Shown here piece after piece: positions 3,626 to 20,013 of a DNA stretch of 20,349 nucleotides. How positions within the stretch are numbered: position 1 is the stretch's first letter; every line of letters begins with the position of its first letter. A program made the position numbers and the translations under genes. The DNA comes from a virus: the IMG/VR virus record IMGVR_UViG_3300045932_000273, positions 1-20,349 of that record, one strand, 5' to 3'. Under the pieces are notes generated by a model that worked only from the letters and a program-made list of their open reading frames with translations, did not search any database and was not told the origin of the DNA.

Positions 3626-4159
3626 GTGACGTCGCTGACGTTGGACACCAAGGGGTGGGTGCGAGGGCTCGCGAATCTGCAGGCCAACGCGCCGGCGGCG
3701 ATCGCGCGCGCGCTCAATCGCTCGGTGACGAGCGCAAACGTCGTGATGGTGCGTGCGGTCGCGACCGATCTCGCGTTGAGGCAGTCCGACGTCAAGGAAC
3801 GCATCTCCGTGAGAAATGCGTCGCCGGCGCACCTGGTGGCACAGCTCATCGCCACGGGCATGCGGATCCCGCTGATCAAGTTCAATGCGCGCGAGCGCCG
3901 CGGCCGCGGCGTCACGGCGCGATTGCCTGGCGGTCAAGGCAGCTATCCGCGAGCGTTCATCGCCACGATGTCCAGCGGCCATCGCGGCGTCTTCATCCGG
4001 AAGGGCAAGCCACGGCTCCCCATCGCGGAGCTGTTCGGGCCGTCGATTCCGCACGTGTTCCAGAAGCACATCCCGCAGGGTCTCGCGCGCGGGCTCGAGC
4101 AGCTCGGGAAGAACCTGGTGTCCGAAATGCGATTCGCGCTGCGCCGGAGCGCAGGCTAG
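3626..4159 (+). CDS. Prophage minor tail protein Z-like (tail completion)
   Basis: A 177-residue basic protein. It carries the features recalled for the GpZ family: an ALNRSVTSANVVMVRAVATD helix, the hydrophobic strand IPLIKFNARER followed by an Arg/Gly turn, then AFIATMSSGHRGVFIRKGKP and LPIAELFGPSIPHVF. GpZ-type proteins act in tail completion at the head-proximal end. The start is GTG at 3626, one base after the previous stop. The tail tube gene follows 10 bases downstream, matching usual tail-module order. Confidence 0.8.
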   Translation: MTSLTLDTKGWVRGLANLQANAPAAIARALNRSVTSANVVMVRAVATDLALRQSDVKERISVRNASPAHLVAQLIATGMRIPLIKFNARERRGRGVTARLPGGQGSYPRAFIATMSSGHRGVFIRKGKPRLPIAELFGPSIPHVFQKHIPQGLARGLEQLGKNLVSEMRFALRRSAG

Positions 4160-4793: not shown

Positions 4794-5009
4794 GTGGATG
4801 AAACGGGCGTGCAGACGTCTGCACACACTGGCGGCGGGGCTGAGGGCGGCGGGCTCGGGGCGCAGGTTCTGGCGCTCCGGGAAGTGGCGGCCAGCCACAA
4901 GCGCGCGATCCGGCAGCACCGCGAACGACTGGCCTCCACGATGGAGGCGTTGAACGAACTCGAGGCGCGATGCCGTGTGCTGGGCATCCGCCTGATCGTC
5001 CAGGAGTAG
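4794..5009 (+). CDS. Small coiled-coil protein of unknown function
   Basis: A 71-residue protein starting at GTG 4794. A glycine-rich first 25 residues lead into a regular helical stretch from about LREVAASHKRAIRQHRERLA to the C-terminus, with leucine, alanine and isoleucine at heptad spacing. It probably self-associates or binds a tail protein. It lies four bases upstream of the next ATG, so it is in the tail operon. The N-terminus contains the perfect palindrome GTGCAGACGTCTGCAC. No known family recognised. Confidence 0.55.
   Translation: MDETGVQTSAHTGGGAEGGGLGAQVLALREVAASHKRAIRQHRERLASTMEALNELEARCRVLGIRLIVQE
4809..4824. repeat. 16-bp perfect palindrome, copy 1
   Basis: GTGCAGACGTCTGCAC, identical to the copy at 13386-13401 and one base from the core of the copy at 19476-19495. 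This copy lies inside the small coiled-coil gene. Confidence 0.8.
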
Positions 5010-8318: not shown

Positions 8319-10562
8319 GTGCGACACGAGATCTCGATCGCGCGCTTCGGCCGCTATCTCGAGCATCTGATCAACCTCGAGCAGGTCGTCGCCGCCTACG
8401 GACTCAGTGAGCAAATCCAGCCGCGGGCGAAGTGCATGGTCTTCGACCGCAATCACGGAACGTGGGAAGGCACCGGCGCGGTGCGAGGCCAGGCGTTTAC
8501 CTCGATCCCGGGTGGTCATCTCGGGGTGCAGCTCAATGGCTCGGCACGCGTGCGCATCCCGCACGATGGCTCAGGTTTCGTGATGGAAGGCGACTCCGGA
8601 GGCCGCACGCTGTCTGGTGCCTTCGGCGACTTCGACATCTTCTCGCTGATTTGCACGACGCAGAACGATTCGACGCTTCGGCCCATTGTCCAGAAGCAGG
8701 AGACGAACAGCAGCGGCAACGGCTGGCACAAGGCGATGAAGGATGGGCAGCTGCGCGGATACGGGAAAGTGGGTGGCGTGGAGCTGTTCAACTTCGGCCG
8801 GGACTATCCCATCACCGACGGTCTCGAGCACATTGTGCAGTTGCACATCAGTGTCGCGAACGGTTTCGCGCGCTTGATCGTGGACGGCGTGCCACTCGGC
8901 GCGGACGAGCCGTTCAGCGGCGAGCTCGAGATCAACGGCGGCGACTGCCTCATCGGCATGTTCAACGACGTCGTGCCCGGTGATGGGTTCATCGGGCGCG
9001 TTGCCATGGTCGCGATGAGCCGAGAGGGAAATCCCGACATCTGCGCGGATCTCCACCGCACGCGCACGTGGCACGACATCACCAAGGATGTGCGCGTCGA
9101 CACGGCGCCGGCGCAGGCCAAGCACGGCACGTGGGATCAGTCTCCACTCGCCTTTACGGCTGCGCCTGGTCTGATGATGTTCTCGCTCGACAACTCGAAT
9201 CTGAACGATGCCGGCAAGCAGGGGGGCTTCACGCCCGGCCATGCGAATTGTCTGCCGGGGTTCAAGGAAGGGATCCCGATCAAGTGGGACATCCGGGATG
9301 ACGCCGGCGCGCTTCACCCGCAATTCCGAGGGTTCATCGAATCGATCGACATCGAGACCGGGACCGCTCGAGGGCAGCGCGTGGAACTGCTCGCCGCGAC
9401 GTGGTTCAAACGCGCGATGGAAGCGTGGGTTCGTCAGCTCCCGGTGCAAGTCAACCTTCGTTCGGACGATGCGCTGCGCTGGGTGATGGACCAGTGCGAG
9501 CGGCCGCCGATGGCCGTCGATCTCGCTGTAGGCGAATCGACGTTCCCGATCGTGTTCGACGACATTGATCCGGAAGAGTTCGTCTACACGGTGATGGCGC
9601 GCGTCACCGTGAACGAAGGCGGGCGCCTGTATGAGCGTCTCGACGGCACCGTTGCGTACGAGGCAAGGCCGACACGGTTCCTCAAGATCACGCCGGATGC
9701 CGTGTGGAGCCAGTACGAGCTCGAGGCGCTCGATGCGAAACGCGCAAAGGAACAGGTCGTCAACCTCGCGAGGGTGAGCTACCGCCCGGCGCGGGTTGGT
9801 GCCACGGCGACGACCGAGTTGGCGTCGATGTCCCAGCGCGTCGAGGTGCCGCCGAATCGCTCGCTGCCAGTGACGGTGGAGCTGACCTATCGCGACCCGA
9901 CCCAGCCGAGCGCAGAGGTTGGCGGGATGGATATTCAGACGCCTGTGGCCAATACCGACTACACGATGAACACGCAGGCTGACGGCCAGGGCGACGACAT
10001 CACGGCGTTCGCGGAAGTATCGATGCCGGATGCGGTGCGCGGCGGCTCGAGCGTGAAGGTGACTGTGCGAAACACGCATCACGTCTTCGTTGGGTATTTC
10101 ATGACACGCATTCGCGGGCGTGACCTCAAGCGCTTCGACGAGCAGCAATTCGAGGTGCGCGACGACGCGAGCATTTTCCAGAACGATCCGAAGCCGCTTG
10201 GCATCGCCTTCGACTATCAGACGAACGAGGATGAGGCCAAGGCGATCGCCGGCCAGGTCGTGGCGCTGCGCAAAGAGCCCTTCATGGCGCCCCGCATCGC
10301 GACGCGGCGCAACATCGATCCCGACATCCTCGAAGACATGCTCGTGCGCGAGATGGGCGACATGGTCAGCCTGTCCGAGGACATGTCCGGCCTCGACGGC
10401 AGCCAGCGGACGTTCATCGACGGTCGAGAGCTGATCGCCGGCGGTCCGGACGGCGAGCTCGTGGCGACGTACGCCGTCACGCGTGCGCCGGCAGCGCAGT
10501 CCTTCTGGATCCTCGAGGAAGAGGGTTACTCGGAGCTCGACGAAACGACGGTGCTTGGATGA
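8319..10562 (+). CDS. Tail-tip protein with N-terminal LamG/concanavalin-like domain
   Basis: A 747-residue protein starting at GTG 8319, one base after the tape-measure stop. Residues about 60-245 alternate strands with patterns such as LGVQLNGSARVRIPHDGSG, HIVQLHISVANGFARLIVDG and a closing FIGRVAMVAMS, matching LamG/concanavalin-like sandwiches that bind carbohydrates. A tail-protein core follows: FSLDNSNLNDAGKQGGFTPG and a stretch (about residues 325-345) ending in a FRGFIESIDI strand resemble phage tail-tip hub proteins. The C-terminal third is beta-rich with a final DGELVATYAVTRA. In this position it is likely the central tip or adsorption protein, the sandwich contributing surface glycan contact. 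Exact homology to Dit or Tal is not established. Confidence 0.75.
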   Translation: MRHEISIARFGRYLEHLINLEQVVAAYGLSEQIQPRAKCMVFDRNHGTWEGTGAVRGQAFTSIPGGHLGVQLNGSARVRIPHDGSGFVMEGDSGGRTLSGAFGDFDIFSLICTTQNDSTLRPIVQKQETNSSGNGWHKAMKDGQLRGYGKVGGVELFNFGRDYPITDGLEHIVQLHISVANGFARLIVDGVPLGADEPFSGELEINGGDCLIGMFNDVVPGDGFIGRVAMVAMSREGNPDICADLHRTRTWHDITKDVRVDTAPAQAKHGTWDQSPLAFTAAPGLMMFSLDNSNLNDAGKQGGFTPGHANCLPGFKEGIPIKWDIRDDAGALHPQFRGFIESIDIETGTARGQRVELLAATWFKRAMEAWVRQLPVQVNLRSDDALRWVMDQCERPPMAVDLAVGESTFPIVFDDIDPEEFVYTVMARVTVNEGGRLYERLDGTVAYEARPTRFLKITPDAVWSQYELEALDAKRAKEQVVNLARVSYRPARVGATATTELASMSQRVEVPPNRSLPVTVELTYRDPTQPSAEVGGMDIQTPVANTDYTMNTQADGQGDDITAFAEVSMPDAVRGGSSVKVTVRNTHHVFVGYFMTRIRGRDLKRFDEQQFEVRDDASIFQNDPKPLGIAFDYQTNEDEAKAIAGQVVALRKEPFMAPRIATRRNIDPDILEDMLVREMGDMVSLSEDMSGLDGSQRTFIDGRELIAGGPDGELVATYAVTRAPAAQSFWILEEEGYSELDETTVLG

Positions 10563-13253: not shown

Positions 13254-13573
13254 TCTCCTTTCGCGGCTAATATACACAATCCAAACGAGTAGTACAAGCG
13301 GGCATTCTCATCGCTGTTCACGAGTGTTCACAGCTCTTGAGCCCTCTTGGCCGATCTGGTTCCCGCTTCGTTCCCGGTAACTGCGGTGCAGACGTCTGCA
13401 CTAACCGCCTGCAAGGGCCCTGCGCTTTGACCGCGTCTGTCCGTGCGCGCGGCTATGCTCGATACGGTACGAAACGTGATAATTTCATGCGACCGCTTGA
13501 TCCTCGATTTCACAAGGCGTTCGTCACGACCGTCGTCATCGTTACTACTCGGTAACGTTGCTGCCGCCGCGCT
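13254..13573. other. Intergenic region with palindrome and short tandem motifs
   Basis: No convincing gene in 320 bases. It contains TGTTCAC twice in direct orientation (13315 and 13325), GTTCCCG twice (13359 and 13370), the 16-bp palindrome at 13386, and possible promoter boxes for the downstream operon: TTGACC at 13427, and TATGCT at 13454 or GATAAT at 13478. None of the box pairs has ideal spacing, so the start of transcription is not fixed. Confidence 0.5.
13386..13401. repeat. 16-bp perfect palindrome, copy 2
   Basis: GTGCAGACGTCTGCAC, identical to the copy at 4809-4824. It is intergenic, about 170 bases upstream of the three-gene operon, and could act there as an operator. Confidence 0.8.
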
Positions 13574-15408: not shown

Positions 15409-15514
15409 AAAAAAGCCGATGCGTGCCGCGGCGGCCTGGCTGCGGGTCGGGCACTGAGCTCTCCAGGTAGTCCTCGCGAAAGATCTCGCCTGGGTGCGTC
15501 GGAGCCCGACGCAT
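15344..15514 (-). pseudogene. higA 5'-end duplicate, truncated
   Basis: From ATG 15514 the frame repeats the HigA N-terminus (MRRAPTHPGEIFREDYLESS, then VPDP and PGRRG), after which homology stops and unrelated sequence is read to 15344, overlapping the end of the upstream operon. The homologous 84 bases (15431-15514) match 15966-16049 with about eight mismatches, so the copy is diverged. The helix-turn-helix DNA-binding core is absent, so it cannot replace HigA. Confidence 0.75.
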
Positions 15515-15746: not shown

Positions 15747-16130
15747 TCATGGCTTTGTGCGCTGTCGGCGCTCCTGCATCGCGTGCCACAGGTCGTGGCG
15801 CAGCTGCAGCGTCGCCCAGAACTCGGCGCTCGTTTTCGTGAGCTCCGCCAAGTCGAGCGCGCCCTCGAGCGTGAGCGGCCGCTTCCCCAGCACGAACTCG
15901 TTCATGCGGTTCGCGCTCCAGCCCAATGCGCGCGCGGCCGCGGCTTGCTTCCCTTGCGCGCCGCGTCGGCCTGGCTCCGGATCGGGTACCGAGCTCTCGA
16001 GGTAGTCCTCGCGAAAGATCTCGCCCGGGTGTGTCGGAGCCCGACGCATGCGCGTCAGGCTCATGGGGTCGGTCGCGGGCCGCTCAGCGGCCGCGGCGTC
16101 CTGTGTGATCTTCTCCGATGATGCCGACAT
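15747..16130 (-). CDS. higA: HigA-family antitoxin (XRE helix-turn-helix)
   Basis: A 127-residue antitoxin that should neutralise HigB by direct binding and repress the operon through its DNA-binding domain. The family opening RRAPTHPGEIFREDYL is followed by a helix-turn-helix region (ARALGWSANRMNEFVLGKRP, then LTLEGALDLAELTKTSAEFW) and the usual ending LQLRHDLWHAM. ATG 16130 has an AAGGGAA ribosome site and overlaps higB by 47 bases. ATG 16064 is a shorter alternative, just after the higB stop. The gene order toxin-antitoxin is typical of hig loci. Confidence 0.88.
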   Translation of the reverse strand: MSASSEKITQDAAAAERPATDPMSLTRMRRAPTHPGEIFREDYLESSVPDPEPGRRGAQGKQAAAARALGWSANRMNEFVLGKRPLTLEGALDLAELTKTSAEFWATLQLRHDLWHAMQERRQRTKP

Positions 16131-16389
16131 CGTATGCGTTCCCTTCGTGGAACCGGAGGTGAATCCGGTATTGATCGTTCAGCCGTATCGCGAGATAGCC
16201 CGGCTTCGTCTCGGTCAGGGCTTCCACCTGCAGTGGGCTCAGGTCATGCGTCGTGGTCGCCGCGTGGATCGCGTCGAGCTTGCGCTGCGCCACTTTCCAC
16301 ACGCGCTGCGGTAGACGACGCGCGGCCTTCGTGTTGAGACCGGCCGCGACGTCCGCTGTCATCTGATCTGCGAAGCTCTTGATCGCCAT
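16084..16389 (-). CDS. higB: HigB-family toxin (RelE/ParE superfamily)
   Basis: A 101-residue small toxin; family members cleave mRNA on the ribosome. Visible features are a helical first half (KAARRLPQRVWKVAQRKLDA) and the C-terminal strands PGYLAIRLNDQYRIHLRF followed by AYDVGII. The family's basic residues are in the second strand (IRLNDQYRI) where the active site lies. ATG 16389 is preceded by GAGGAGAGAGC. Its promoter and leader belong to the three-copy regulatory module. The extension to 16431 in the same frame lies in the leader and is unlikely to be translated. Confidence 0.88.
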   Translation of the reverse strand: MAIKSFADQMTADVAAGLNTKAARRLPQRVWKVAQRKLDAIHAATTTHDLSPLQVEALTETKPGYLAIRLNDQYRIHLRFHEGNAYDVGIIGEDHTGRRGR

Positions 16390-16468
16390 CTGCTCTCTCC
16401 TCGTGTGAGGCGGCGTGATTGCCGAACGCACTTAATCATACATACGACGTATGTATGTGTCAAGTTCC
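16390..16468 (-). promoter_or_regulatory. higBA promoter, operator and leader (module copy 1)
   Basis: On the minus strand: -35 TTGACA (16458-16463), exactly 17 bases, then -10 TATGAT (16435-16440), a near-consensus sigma70 promoter. A perfect 21-bp palindrome (arms CATACATACG/CGTATGTATG around one base, 16437-16457) fills the spacer and part of the -10, so a bound repressor would block polymerase. The leader GGCAATCACGCCGCCTC ends in a small hairpin CCTC-ACAC-GAGG (16399-16410) containing the ribosome site. Confidence 0.75.
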
Positions 16469-16648
16469 ATCAGAACGGGAGAGCGAGCGTTTTTTCTGTG
16501 GTGGTCCGGTCGGCGTGATCCGGTTGCTGCCGTAGTCGTCCATCAGCCGCACAACGAGGGCGGGCAGGTCCCAGCCCTCCTGATCGCTTCGGGCCTTGCA
16601 CCGGTCCCAGACGTCCTGGGGCAAGTCATACAGCGTGAACTTGCGCAT
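16460..16648 (-). CDS. Small protein downstream of ardC, unknown function
   Basis: A 62-residue protein from ATG 16648 with an excellent AAGGAGG ribosome site that lies across the end of the ardC reading frame. The first 40 residues (MRKFTLYDLPQDVWDRCKAR, then a WDLPALVVRLMDDY helix) have the strand-helix-helix look of a ribbon-helix-helix DNA-binding protein. A basic, Ser/Pro-rich tail follows. Its last codons overlap the higB -35 box. It could be the regulator that binds the repeated palindrome, which is inference. Confidence 0.6.
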   Translation of the reverse strand: MRKFTLYDLPQDVWDRCKARSDQEGWDLPALVVRLMDDYGSNRITPTGPPQKKRSLSRSDGT

Positions 16649-16658
16649 GGGTCCTCCT

Positions 16659-17347
16659 TCATGCCGCGAGTTGCTCGGCGTCGACGACGCGGCCGGCGCG
16701 AAGGATCGCGTCGGCCGCCTTGAAGATGCGCTGCGCGGAGCGCTCCGGGACTTCTCCGCCGCGGAGCCAGTGCTGAATATACCCGCGGCAGTACTCGAGC
16801 CCGTCCTGGTTCAGCGCGCCAAGCACCAGCAGCGCGACCGATTCGGCCTCGACTTCGCGGATGTTGCGCGGCGTCAGGTCGCCGTCCACCATCGTGTGCT
16901 CGAGCGTGTGACCGAGCACGACGTGCGCGAGCTCGTGGACGAGCGTCTTGAACGGCACCGCGGCGATCGGCGAGACGGCCACTTCACGGCCGCGCGCGAA
17001 GCCCTGGCAGTTCCCGTCGGGCAGGTCAAATGCCGTTTCGGTGACCTGCAGCGCCTCGAGCGCCAGGGCCTTGCTCCACTCCGGCGGCGCCGGCGCCGCG
17101 TACGGCTGGCCATCGGTCTGCGACAGCACGAACCCTTGCGCACCTGGCGGCCCATCGCCTGCCATGCGGCGTAGGTGGCCATCGGCCCGAGCTCGAGGCC
17201 GCGCTCGATGCACTGTGCCCACGCGAGCAGCTGGTTGCCCAGGCTGTAGGTGTGGAACCGGGTGTAGGCCTCGTGCAGGCGGCCGGGCTCGGTGACGACG
17301 GTGTTCAGGAGGGCGGCGAACGATGGGGACTTGCTGGTCTCGGGCAT
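16659..17347 (-). pseudogene. ardC: ArdC-family antirestriction gene with internal deletion and frameshift
   Basis: Both halves of an ArdC-like protein are present but in different frames. The N-terminal half, from ATG 17347 (PSFAALLNTVV, HEAYTRFHTYSLGNQLLAWA, ending MGRQVRKG), is the ssDNA-binding-type domain. The C-terminal half resumes with FVLSQTDGQP and carries the zinc metallopeptidase motif HELAHVVLGH, then EVEAESVALLVL and YCRGYIQHWL. The frames meet near 17131-17135, and some 30-40 residues normally between RKG and FVLSQ are missing, so an out-of-frame deletion is the simplest reading. Intact ArdC protects incoming mobile DNA from restriction. Promoter and ribosome site remain good. 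Confidence 0.8.
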
Positions 17348-17430
17348 TGGCTCTCTCCTCGTGTGAGGCGGCGTAATTGCCAACCGAATGAACTAATTAT
17401 ACATACGATACATGTATGATGCAAGTTCCG
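17348..17430 (-). promoter_or_regulatory. ardC promoter and leader (module copy 2)
   Basis: On the minus strand: -35 TTGCAT (17419-17424), a 17-base spacer and a consensus -10 TATAAT (17396-17401). The spacer holds an imperfect version of the palindrome. The leader GGCAATTACGCCGCCTC and the CCTC-ACAC-GAGG hairpin (17357-17368) match copy 1. This promoter points away from copy 3, about 45 bases separating the two -35 boxes. Confidence 0.75.
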
Positions 17431-17465
17431 TCGCCTGACAAGGGATGTCGAGAGACGCCCGCGAT

Positions 17466-17545
17466 GGAACTTAAAGATACACACAACGTATGTATAATTA
17501 GTTCGACGTTGGCAATCACGCCACCTCGATTCGAGGAGAGAGCAG
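17466..17545 (+). promoter_or_regulatory. Divergent promoter and leader (module copy 3)
   Basis: -35 TTAAAG (17471-17476), a 16-base spacer and -10 TATAAT (17493-17498), then TAGTTCGACGTTGGCAATC. The leader ends in the hairpin CCTCG-ATT-CGAGG (17524-17536), which keeps the stem of copies 1 and 2 while extending it by one pair and changing the loop. It overlaps the ribosome site GAGGAGAGAGC of the gene at 17546. Confidence 0.72.
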
Positions 17546-17851
17546 ATGCAACTGACCGTCAAAATCATCCCGAACGATTCGAGCAATCCTCCGGGAAAAC
17601 TCGCAGACGCGGAACTGCACTTTGTCGAGGGTCCGCTCGCGGGCCTGAAACTGATCGGCTTCGCGGTCTGGGAACGCCGCGCCGGCGTTGGCCGGAACGT
17701 GACGTTCCCTGCCCGTCAGTATTCCGTCAACGGTGAGCGCCGCTCATTCGCGCTGCTCAGGCCTGTCGATGGGACTGCGGAGGCGCAGGAGCGCGTTCGC
17801 GAGATGATCGTCGCGGCGTACGCCGAGTACGAACAGGCGGCGGACGTGTAA
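17546..17851 (+). CDS. Small conserved protein sharing the ardC/higBA control module
   Basis: A 101-residue protein. The order of elements is strand (MQLTVKIIPND), LHFVEGPLAGLKLIGFAVWE, NVTFPARQYSVNGERRSFAL and a C-terminal helix (VREMIVAAYAEYEQ). This order resembles the SpoVG fold (beta sheet plus C-terminal helix, with an aromatic-basic surface that binds nucleic acid), but I cannot confirm homology. The conserved-looking RRSFALLRP block is the likely functional surface. Transcribed divergently from ardC with the same leader, it belongs functionally with the antirestriction/toxin-antitoxin cargo of the element. Confidence 0.65.
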   Translation: MQLTVKIIPNDSSNPPGKLADAELHFVEGPLAGLKLIGFAVWERRAGVGRNVTFPARQYSVNGERRSFALLRPVDGTAEAQERVREMIVAAYAEYEQAADV

Positions 17852-17861
17852 TTGGGCAGGT

Positions 17862-17891
17862 GGGGGGGAGGGGCTCTCGCCCCTCCCCCCC
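17862..17891. terminator. GC-only hairpin, terminator-like
   Basis: Perfect 13-bp stem GGGGGGGAGGGGC / GCCCCTCCCCCCC with a TCTC loop, 10 bases after the preceding stop. There is no following T run, so it is not a canonical intrinsic terminator. It could act by RNA structure or block 3' decay. Confidence 0.5.
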
Positions 17892-18627
17892 CTCGCCTCT
17901 CACTGCTTCCTTGTATCGCCGTGTCCTGGCTTCGGCACACGTTCAACGGTGTGCGTTGATGGATGCCGCTCTGCATCTCTTACCGTCGTGAACTCACCGG
18001 TCCGAGCGTCGCGTCCGCGTGGCGTGGTGCGAGACGTGTCTCGACCTCCGCCCGAACGTCCAGGCTTTCCTGACATGTGACCTCCTCATTGTTGTGAAAA
18101 TGCTGAACCCGGCGCGATCAGAGCAAGAAGCGAGCCGCATTTCCTTCAGTGATTGTGTTCAAATCGGCCATATTCCGACTCGGAGTGTCGGTTGATCCCA
18201 CAGTCGTGTCTTATTCGAGTCAGGGGTGTCGGCTGAAGCGACAGCTTGAGGACGGTGTTTGTTGAACCTGACAGTCACAGTTTGCCTCCGCGAGTTCGGT
18301 AATCGCGCACGGCCGATGAGCATGAATCCCGCAGCTCCCCCTTGAGCAGTCGCTCGATCACACGAGAGCAGTCGTCTGCGCTCTCATGTTCCTTCGAAAT
18401 CCCGCGAATTCCCGCAGATTCCCGGACACCGCTTTCCGTCCAGTAAGCCCGCGATACTAAGCAGCGACAGTCGCCCTGGCCTGAAATCCAAGGGCCGATC
18501 GCGACCCGGTGGTGTCGGCATCGATGCAATCGAGCAGTGAGATACCGGCGGCAGGAGTAAGTGTGGCTCGGTTCCTGCTGTCACTTCGTGTGTTCCAGCA
18601 ATTCAGGGGCGGATATCGGGAAAGTGG
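17892..18627. other. Gene-poor stretch with IS-end-like repeats
   Basis: About 740 bases without a convincing gene. Reading frames here start at weak codons and lack ribosome sites. A short motif GCAGTCGTCTGC at 18369-18380 is a partial version of the 16-bp palindrome. The 18172-18236 part holds two similar repeats. Composition is less GC-rich than the genes around, consistent with decayed mobile DNA. Confidence 0.5.
18172..18236. repeat. Two diverged direct repeats, possible insertion-sequence end
   Basis: Copies at 18172-18195 and 18213-18236 are 41 bases apart, both ending in GTGTCGG(T/C)TGA and sharing a CGA(C/G)TC(A)GG core. Downstream, TGAAGCGACAGCTTGAGGAC and then TGTTGAACCTGACAGTCACA continue the pattern. 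Multiple related repeats near an end are typical of IS21-like termini. No transposase is present, so this would be a solo remnant. Confidence 0.4.
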
Positions 18628-18939: not shown

Positions 18940-20013
18940 TCAACCAGATTTGTTTGAGGCTGGTCCCAGGTCCAGCCCCAAGTACTCCGCCATCTGATCG
19001 AGCGATCGCCACGGGCCGAGCAGCTGCACGGTTCGAACGTCGATCCCGAACTCGCGAATCATCCGCGTGGCTCCGCTCGCGCGCGTCGCCGTATGCCAGA
19101 CGACGCCGCCGGCGCGGATGCCCCACGGGATGTCGGCGCGTTTGCAGGCTCGCCGGAAGATCTTCGCGAGGTAGCCACGCGCGTGCTGCTTCGGGTCTTT
19201 CTGGACCTTGGCGAAGCGTTCGCGCCACGTCGGGAAGAAGTAGCCGTTCGCCGACTTCGGCATGCGCGCGGCCAGCGCGGTCGCCGCGGCCGTCTGGAGC
19301 TCGGTCGGGCCCTCGAGGGAGATCTGGTGCGGCCCGGTCTTGGTCTGCACGACCAGGCGCGTGCCCTGGTGATGCTGGCGGCGGAGGCTGACGAGGGTCT
19401 CCTGACGCAGCAGCGTGCCGAGGCCGACGACGAACAGGTCGTGCAGCTCGGGGTCGTGCAGCTGCGCGATCAGGCGAGTGCAGTCGTCTGCACTCAGCGT
19501 CCGCTTCGCCGGCAGCCGCTCGGTGCGGCGCTTCAGATGCGCGAGCGGGCTAACCTCGATGTGCTCGCCGACGGCCGCGGCGAGGATGCTCTTCATCAGC
19601 GCGAGCTCGCGCCCGACCGTGTTCGCCTTCACGCCGGCTGCCAGGCGATCGGTCTCGTACTCCTTCCAGCGCGCGGGGCGAATGTCGCTGAGGCGGAATG
19701 CGTTGAAGTGCTCGCGCAGATGTCCGAGCATCACGAGCTCGCGGACCTTGCCGCGGTGTTTGTTCGTGTGGTGCGTCTCGTACCACGCCGACCAGGTCTT
19801 GAACGTCTCGCTGCTCGCGATCGGGAGGCCTACCCTGCCCTTCGCGAGCTGCGTCATTCGTGCGTGGTAGATCTCCTCGGCCTGGGCCGCCTGCTGCTTG
19901 CGAAGGGTCGCTGAACTGCCGTCGTGTCGAATCCTGGTGTTCTCTTTCTTGCGGCCCGTGCCCTCGAGGAGCATCCACCAGAACGGGCTGTCACTCCGCT
20001 TAAAGAGGCCCAT
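18940..20013 (-). CDS. Tyrosine recombinase/phage-type integrase
   Basis: Site-specific recombinase. I chose ATG 20013 (MGLFKRSDSPFWWMLL), a standard integrase opening; a TTG at 20079 would add 22 residues. The SAM-like core-binding domain spans TFKTWSAWYETHH to the HIEVSPLAHL region. Catalytic candidates are an Arg in TLLRQETLVSL (around 19410), Lys in VVQTKTGPHQISL (19322-19360), WHTATRASGATRMI (19060-19100), Trp in LLGPWRS and Tyr in MAEYLGL (codon 18982-18984). The usual HxxR box reads HTATR, with one more residue between His and Arg. It may belong to an element different from the prophage, whose own integrase should lie beyond its other end. Confidence 0.88.
   Translation of the reverse strand: MGLFKRSDSPFWWMLLEGTGRKKENTRIRHDGSSATLRKQQAAQAEEIYHARMTQLAKGRVGLPIASSETFKTWSAWYETHHTNKHRGKVRELVMLGHLREHFNAFRLSDIRPARWKEYETDRLAAGVKANTVGRELALMKSILAAAVGEHIEVSPLAHLKRRTERLPAKRTLSADDCTRLIAQLHDPELHDLFVVGLGTLLRQETLVSLRRQHHQGTRLVVQTKTGPHQISLEGPTELQTAAATALAARMPKSANGYFFPTWRERFAKVQKDPKQHARGYLAKIFRRACKRADIPWGIRAGGVVWHTATRASGATRMIREFGIDVRTVQLLGPWRSLDQMAEYLGLDLGPASNKSG
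19476..19495. repeat. Palindrome copy 3, one mismatched pair
   Basis: GAGTGCAGTCGTCTGCACTC: 8-bp perfect arms with a TCGT centre. Its 16-base core differs from copies 1 and 2 by one base (T for A). It lies inside the integrase coding region (reads SADDCT on the minus strand), so codon constraint alone could account for it. Confidence 0.6.

Follow-up and report, generated by a model that had tools for sequence, protein, structure and literature searches.

Hairpins in 5' untranslated regions that sequester the Shine-Dalgarno (SD) sequence under the control of a protein are well known, and include the coat-protein operator of RNA phages, the targets of T4 RegA and the leaders of ribosomal-protein genes. 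In Aca2-type control, a phage helix-turn-helix (HTH) repressor reportedly binds promoter DNA as well as a hairpin at the ribosome binding site of its own mRNA. Proteins of the ribbon-helix-helix (RHH) type usually bind DNA, as the repressors Arc and CopG do. The leader described here was studied in a 20,349-nt stretch of DNA from a virus record (IMG/VR IMGVR_UViG_3300045932_000273), referred to as the window at its full length. It resembles the protein-controlled SD-sequestering leaders in that its hairpin holds the SD of the downstream gene and a conserved neighbouring sequence would suit a protein ligand. It differs from them in that the stem sequence is free and pairing alone is kept, and in that it stands before unrelated genes in many phages, with a ligand that is only a candidate. 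SD-sequestering leaders are a known kind, and the present one appears, from sequence comparison, to be a new, promoter-independent phage family of them. No covariance model of Rfam release 15 matched anywhere in the window at the gathering score, the matches at 17300-17560 were at chance level, and a literature search on the conserved 12-mer of the leader gave no relevant paper.

It had been proposed in a sequence-only reading of the window that a hairpin encloses the SD in three leaders and is preserved by a compensated change. All three hairpins were located where that reading had placed them and have the form it described. Leader 1 carries CCTC-ACAC-GAGG (CCTCACACGAGG; 16399..16410 (-)) before a HigB-like toxin gene, leader 2 the same hairpin (17357..17368 (-)) before an ardC-like antirestriction gene, and leader 3 CCTCG-ATT-CGAGG (CCTCGATTCGAGG; 17524..17536 (+)) before a gene of unassigned function, gene 3. 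The conserved 12-mer is GGCAATCACGCC in leader 1 (16412..16423 (-); a possible 3-bp hairpin, H1) and leader 3 (17511..17522 (+)) and GGCAATTACGCC in leader 2 (17370..17381 (-)). In each case a promoter is followed by GGCAATYACGCC, then by the hairpin, whose 3' arm holds the SD, and finally by AGAGAG and ATG. The pattern GGCAATYACGCC-N(4,30)-GAGAGAG has three occurrences in the window, where shuffles give an expectation of 0.00. As for the compensated change, copy 3 does gain one pair, but the argument is thin within the window, where copies 1 and 2 have identical hairpins; three homologous copies with one informative change make a weak case for a conserved structure. The folding energies are modest (1.3 to 1.8 sd better than the leaders' own shuffles), and when the fold is extended by 30 nt into the gene, the SD stem has a predicted probability of 0.98, 0.84 and 0.04 in copies 1, 2 and 3, the hairpin of leader 3 being predicted when the leader is folded alone.

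The HigB-like gene (16084..16389 (-); PF05015, E 2.5e-6) passes the curated cut-off of its family with 28.3 bits against 27, and is followed by a HigA-like antitoxin gene with an HTH (15747..16130 (-); weak HTH_31 match, phrog_1381 at E 4e-13). A 95-bp direct repeat (91%; 15420-15514 and 15955-16049) covers part of the higA-like gene, and its downstream second copy looks like a remnant. Leader 1 is like HigBA promoters in standing before a HigB-like toxin with a palindrome in the promoter; unlike in these, other genes lie behind the leader in most phages, and it is not a HigBA feature. The ardC-like gene (16659..17347 (-); ArdcN E 3e-8, Peptidase_M78 E 0.006) is split by a frameshift near 17150 into an ArdcN frame (16874-17347) and an M78-like frame (16659-17222), which is an assembly error or makes it a pseudogene; another leader phage (L007) carries the gene unsplit in a single frame. 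Gene 3 (17546..17851 (+); 101 aa) gave no PHROG match. It belongs to a family of ~100 aa that is common in environmental phages, with relatives in 34 viral loci at 59-83% identity. These 34 loci, together with 42 ArdC relatives, held no leader outside the leader set, and among the gene 3 relatives only L002 has one. Directly after gene 3 lies a long inverted repeat of a G-run and a C-run (17862-17893), which is terminator-like and has no T tail.

The promoter of leader 1, TTGACA-N17-TATGAT (16435..16463 (-); 11 of 12 matches), is near-perfect for sigma-70. A dyad with 10-bp arms, CATACATACG-T-CGTATGTATG, extends over the spacer and beyond it, and none of 300 shuffles reached it. Leader 2 has a promoter-like TTGCAT-N17-TATAAT (17396..17424 (-)) with an imperfect operator copy, whose dyad taken alone is not significant, and leader 3 has a TATAAT -10 box (17493..17498 (+)); both combine a perfect -10 box with a poor -35 box and a degenerate operator copy. 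Control of all copies by HigA through a shared operator fails for the leader phages with other promoters, and within the window only, such control may exist. In L007, the two leaders (2258-2297 and 4026-4069, (-)) have a common operator, ATACACGG-NAT-CCGTGTAT, which is unlike that of the window, while the leader is kept. The operator copies within this phage look as if they changed together with their repressor.

In total, 18 leaders were found in 13 phage records, 15 of them in 12 records other than the window, and they stand before different genes and behind different promoters. The scan patterns set no pairing requirement, and a model built from their matches was used to search further. A pattern with the 5' arm and loop free gave, in L002, a divergent pair before ardC and gene 3 and, in L007, a leader before higB; L007 has an additional leader before ardC. 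Patterns with the whole stem free gave leaders before other genes in L170, L173, L174, L175, L176, L177 (repeated as L179 and L182), L199, L204, L214 and L229. The covariance model R1 added one leader, the second copy in L175, where tandem leaders (9149-9191 and 9348-9389 (+)) each precede their own small gene. Membership was judged on the 12-mer, the gene start and the hairpin in combination. Within the leader records, GGCANTNACGCC occurs 18 times, each time immediately ahead of a gene start; in control loci totalling 388 kb it does not occur. The conservation of the flanks is in part a product of ascertainment and is inflated, as the scans used them; pairing, promoters and RHH linkage lay outside the patterns. 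The records are IMG/VR contigs, and structural genes common to G006, G007, G008 and G010 mean that the independent lineages are fewer than 13.

Several candidates were rejected. The 83 matches of the first pattern in genome contigs were judged to be chance, having no promoter and no gene start, and those in two bacterial genomes (L232 and L233) were chance as well. L171, L178, L180, L172, L219-L228, L231 and most of one wide scan lay in genes, had no ORF behind them or departed from the 12-mer. L230 (15.8 bits, no RHH gene) was left out, as was L181, the one clear exception, in which the 12-mer stands at a gene start with no hairpin. A covariance-model search of 754 genomes from two proteobacterial classes, weak owing to its strict prefilter, yielded no clear member. 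Neither did a search with the pattern through the Bryobacterales phylum (396 genomes) and the Gemmatimonadetes phylum (298 genomes), where one match (L255) was seen. Queries with short leader sequences turned up nothing convincing among annotated phages and plasmids.

Across the members, the architecture is GGCANUCACGCC, a variable hairpin and GAGAGCAG-AUG. The hairpin is mostly 3-6 bp long with a freely varying loop of 3-7 nt, and its 3' arm holds all or part of the SD, so that a conserved helix includes the SD of the downstream gene. When 17 leaders were given to RNAalifold unaided, two adjacent hairpins were predicted, the second being the SD hairpin of the sequence-only reading. Covariation across homologues, which that reading had named as its own check, was found: all four SD-stem pairs changed on both sides, occurring as CG/GU/AU/GC, CG/UA, UA/CG and CG/UA/UG, and the stem as a whole uses CG, GC, AU, UA, GU and UG pairs. 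In the 18 leaders, 94% of the SD-stem cells are paired. The whole structure has 24 cells with two-sided change, 20 of them in the SD stem, a count matched by none of 500 column shuffles, and when the partner was slid by one column, pairing fell to 36-44% from 93%. Restricting the count to a single leader from each record, as a guard against counting relatives, leaves 46 of 50 cells paired; whole-arm shuffles average 71% (0 of 20,000 as high), and among ten distinct stem types 39 of 40 are paired (0 of 100,000 shuffles). The structure of the leader is supported by covariation, and it is its function and ligand that we infer.

The first hairpin, H1, reads GGC-ANUYAC-GCC. Its core is invariant and covariation is thus limited to the outer pair, which is CG in 4 leaders, UA in 4, UG in 4 and unpaired in 6 (paired in 12 of 18). 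This pair lends mild support to H1, so that GGCANUCACGCC is possibly itself a 3-bp hairpin with the loop ANUYAC. Single-sequence thermodynamic folding with the coding sequence is equivocal for several members, with longer alternative folds among the predictions and the SD stem not being the dominant predicted fold in gene 3 of the window, G003, G006a, G009, G010, G011 and G012. In the last of these (L229), the stem is barely formed, with at most 2 bp.

On comparing the ORFs of the leader records, one family stood out, of 45-70 aa and longer in some, with the motif SYILRNIDPELWxRVKARAxxEGxxLRxLILxLLxxYA. In the window, this small, putative RHH (Arc/FitA-like) gene lies between ardC and the higB promoter (16460..16648 (-)). 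It provides the leader with a linked candidate regulator gene: it is present in 10 of 13 leader records vs 2 of 44 control phage records (Fisher p 4e-7), and in the leader records it lies 0.3 to 2.2 kb downstream of a leader, on its strand. In the three records that lack it, the contig stops shortly after the leader; all 10 longer ones have it. The RHH protein of G012, which was absent from the profile, was matched at E 1e-10, an independent confirmation. Most of the best profile matches of the linked protein are RHH families, among them an RHH antitoxin, AvtR and Mnt, below the curated Pfam cut-offs; an AF2 monomer (pLDDT 80) resembles CopG/Arc, with a Foldseek E of about 0.4. At this sub-threshold level the protein resembles regulators of the Arc/CopG/FitA type in profile and fold, and no common DNA operator was identified across the leader records. 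The L214 member had no relative among 50,697 annotated phages, and a literature search found no RNA-binding precedent for RHH proteins and no link between them and RNA leaders.

It is rather probable that the leader is a phage cis-regulatory RNA which gates translation initiation and whose conserved flanks bind a trans-acting factor, most likely the RHH protein; the translational effect, like the presence and identity of the factor, is what we infer. The SD hairpin would limit access of the ribosome to the SD, GGCANUCACGCC and GAGAGCAG on its two sides would form the putative binding site, and the bound factor would shift the balance between hairpin and ribosome. With the small RHH protein, encoded downstream in the same operon, as the candidate factor, control would be autogenous. 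It is the natural candidate because it is present in every leader record that is long enough, though promoters and genes differ. That this protein is the RNA ligand is less likely than not; it may act on promoter DNA alone, and a host factor is the alternative. Like Aca2, the system would possibly combine DNA and RNA control of a phage operon by its own small DNA-binding-type protein. In contrast to Aca2, an HTH protein, the linked protein is of the RHH type, the RNA motif bears no resemblance to the promoter dyads, and RNA binding is only proposed. It is somewhat unlikely, as a reading of the whole, that this is a new RNA family of environmental phages bound by a same-operon RHH protein, with RHH proteins as dual DNA/RNA regulators setting the expression of accessory genes (antirestriction, toxin-antitoxin).

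The leader could instead be an intrinsic element with no regulator of its own, giving a fixed moderate initiation rate or protecting the 5' end of the message, with the RHH protein on promoter DNA only. We regard this as possible and on the doubtful side. Most recognisable -10 boxes lie roughly 9-19 nt ahead of the leader, which would place it close to the 5' end of the mRNA. Repression by RHH proteins such as Arc and CopG is exerted on DNA, and some promoters have strong dyads (higB of the window, G002, G004). However, the near-invariant 12-mer behind different promoters suggests recognition, though it is inflated by the scans, and with one copy being intercistronic, 5'-end protection cannot serve as the general role. 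This copy, at 9353 in L175, lies a few bases past the stop of the 51-aa gene that the first leader precedes, and has no visible promoter. With promoters that are unrelated and once not visible at all, the leader does not depend on the shared promoter named in the sequence-only reading, and is more widespread than that reading assumed.

The same copy bears on whether the element acts as DNA, in which case GGCANTCACGCC would be bound by the RHH or a different DNA-binding protein as an operator or a site downstream of the promoter, and the hairpin would be incidental. In most copies, the 12-mer does lie directly downstream of a promoter, and it is an imperfect palindrome in DNA; yet the variable arms around loops of 3-7 nt covary as in a single strand, the position is fixed relative to the start codon, and one copy lacks a visible promoter, which makes this reading improbable. 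Action on the message is favoured, since both the intercistronic copy with no visible promoter and the constant placement relative to SD and start codon point to it. The stem is always CCTC/GAGG within the window and L002, as it would be if the SD arm were kept for ribosome binding only and the 5' arm were complementary as a by-product of descent from one leader copied with the higB/ardC modules; with about a dozen stem forms over 13 records, changes in both arms and different genes, such a by-product is very improbable indeed.

A structured leader kept by compensatory change in many phages, whatever the promoter or gene, points to unrecognised translational control of phage accessory genes, and the linked RHH gene offers a concrete and inexpensive way of asking if RNA, too, is read by a DNA-binding fold. 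Moreover, the motif offers a handle on co-regulated phage genes of unassigned function, some of them maybe involved in counter-defence.

The 3' end of 16S rRNA is GGUUGGAUCACCUCC, and the leader text GGUUGGCAAUCACGCC-CCUC (17376-17386 (-) in the window, and in homologues) resembles it, which could be anti-SD mimicry or chance. Elsewhere in the window, a perfect 16-bp palindrome, GTGCAGACGTCTGCAC, was observed at 4809-4824, 13386-13401, 19478-19493 and 18366-18381 (two exact copies, one with 1 and one with 3 mismatches; chance alone would give 0.18 matches), and is possibly the operator of another regulator.
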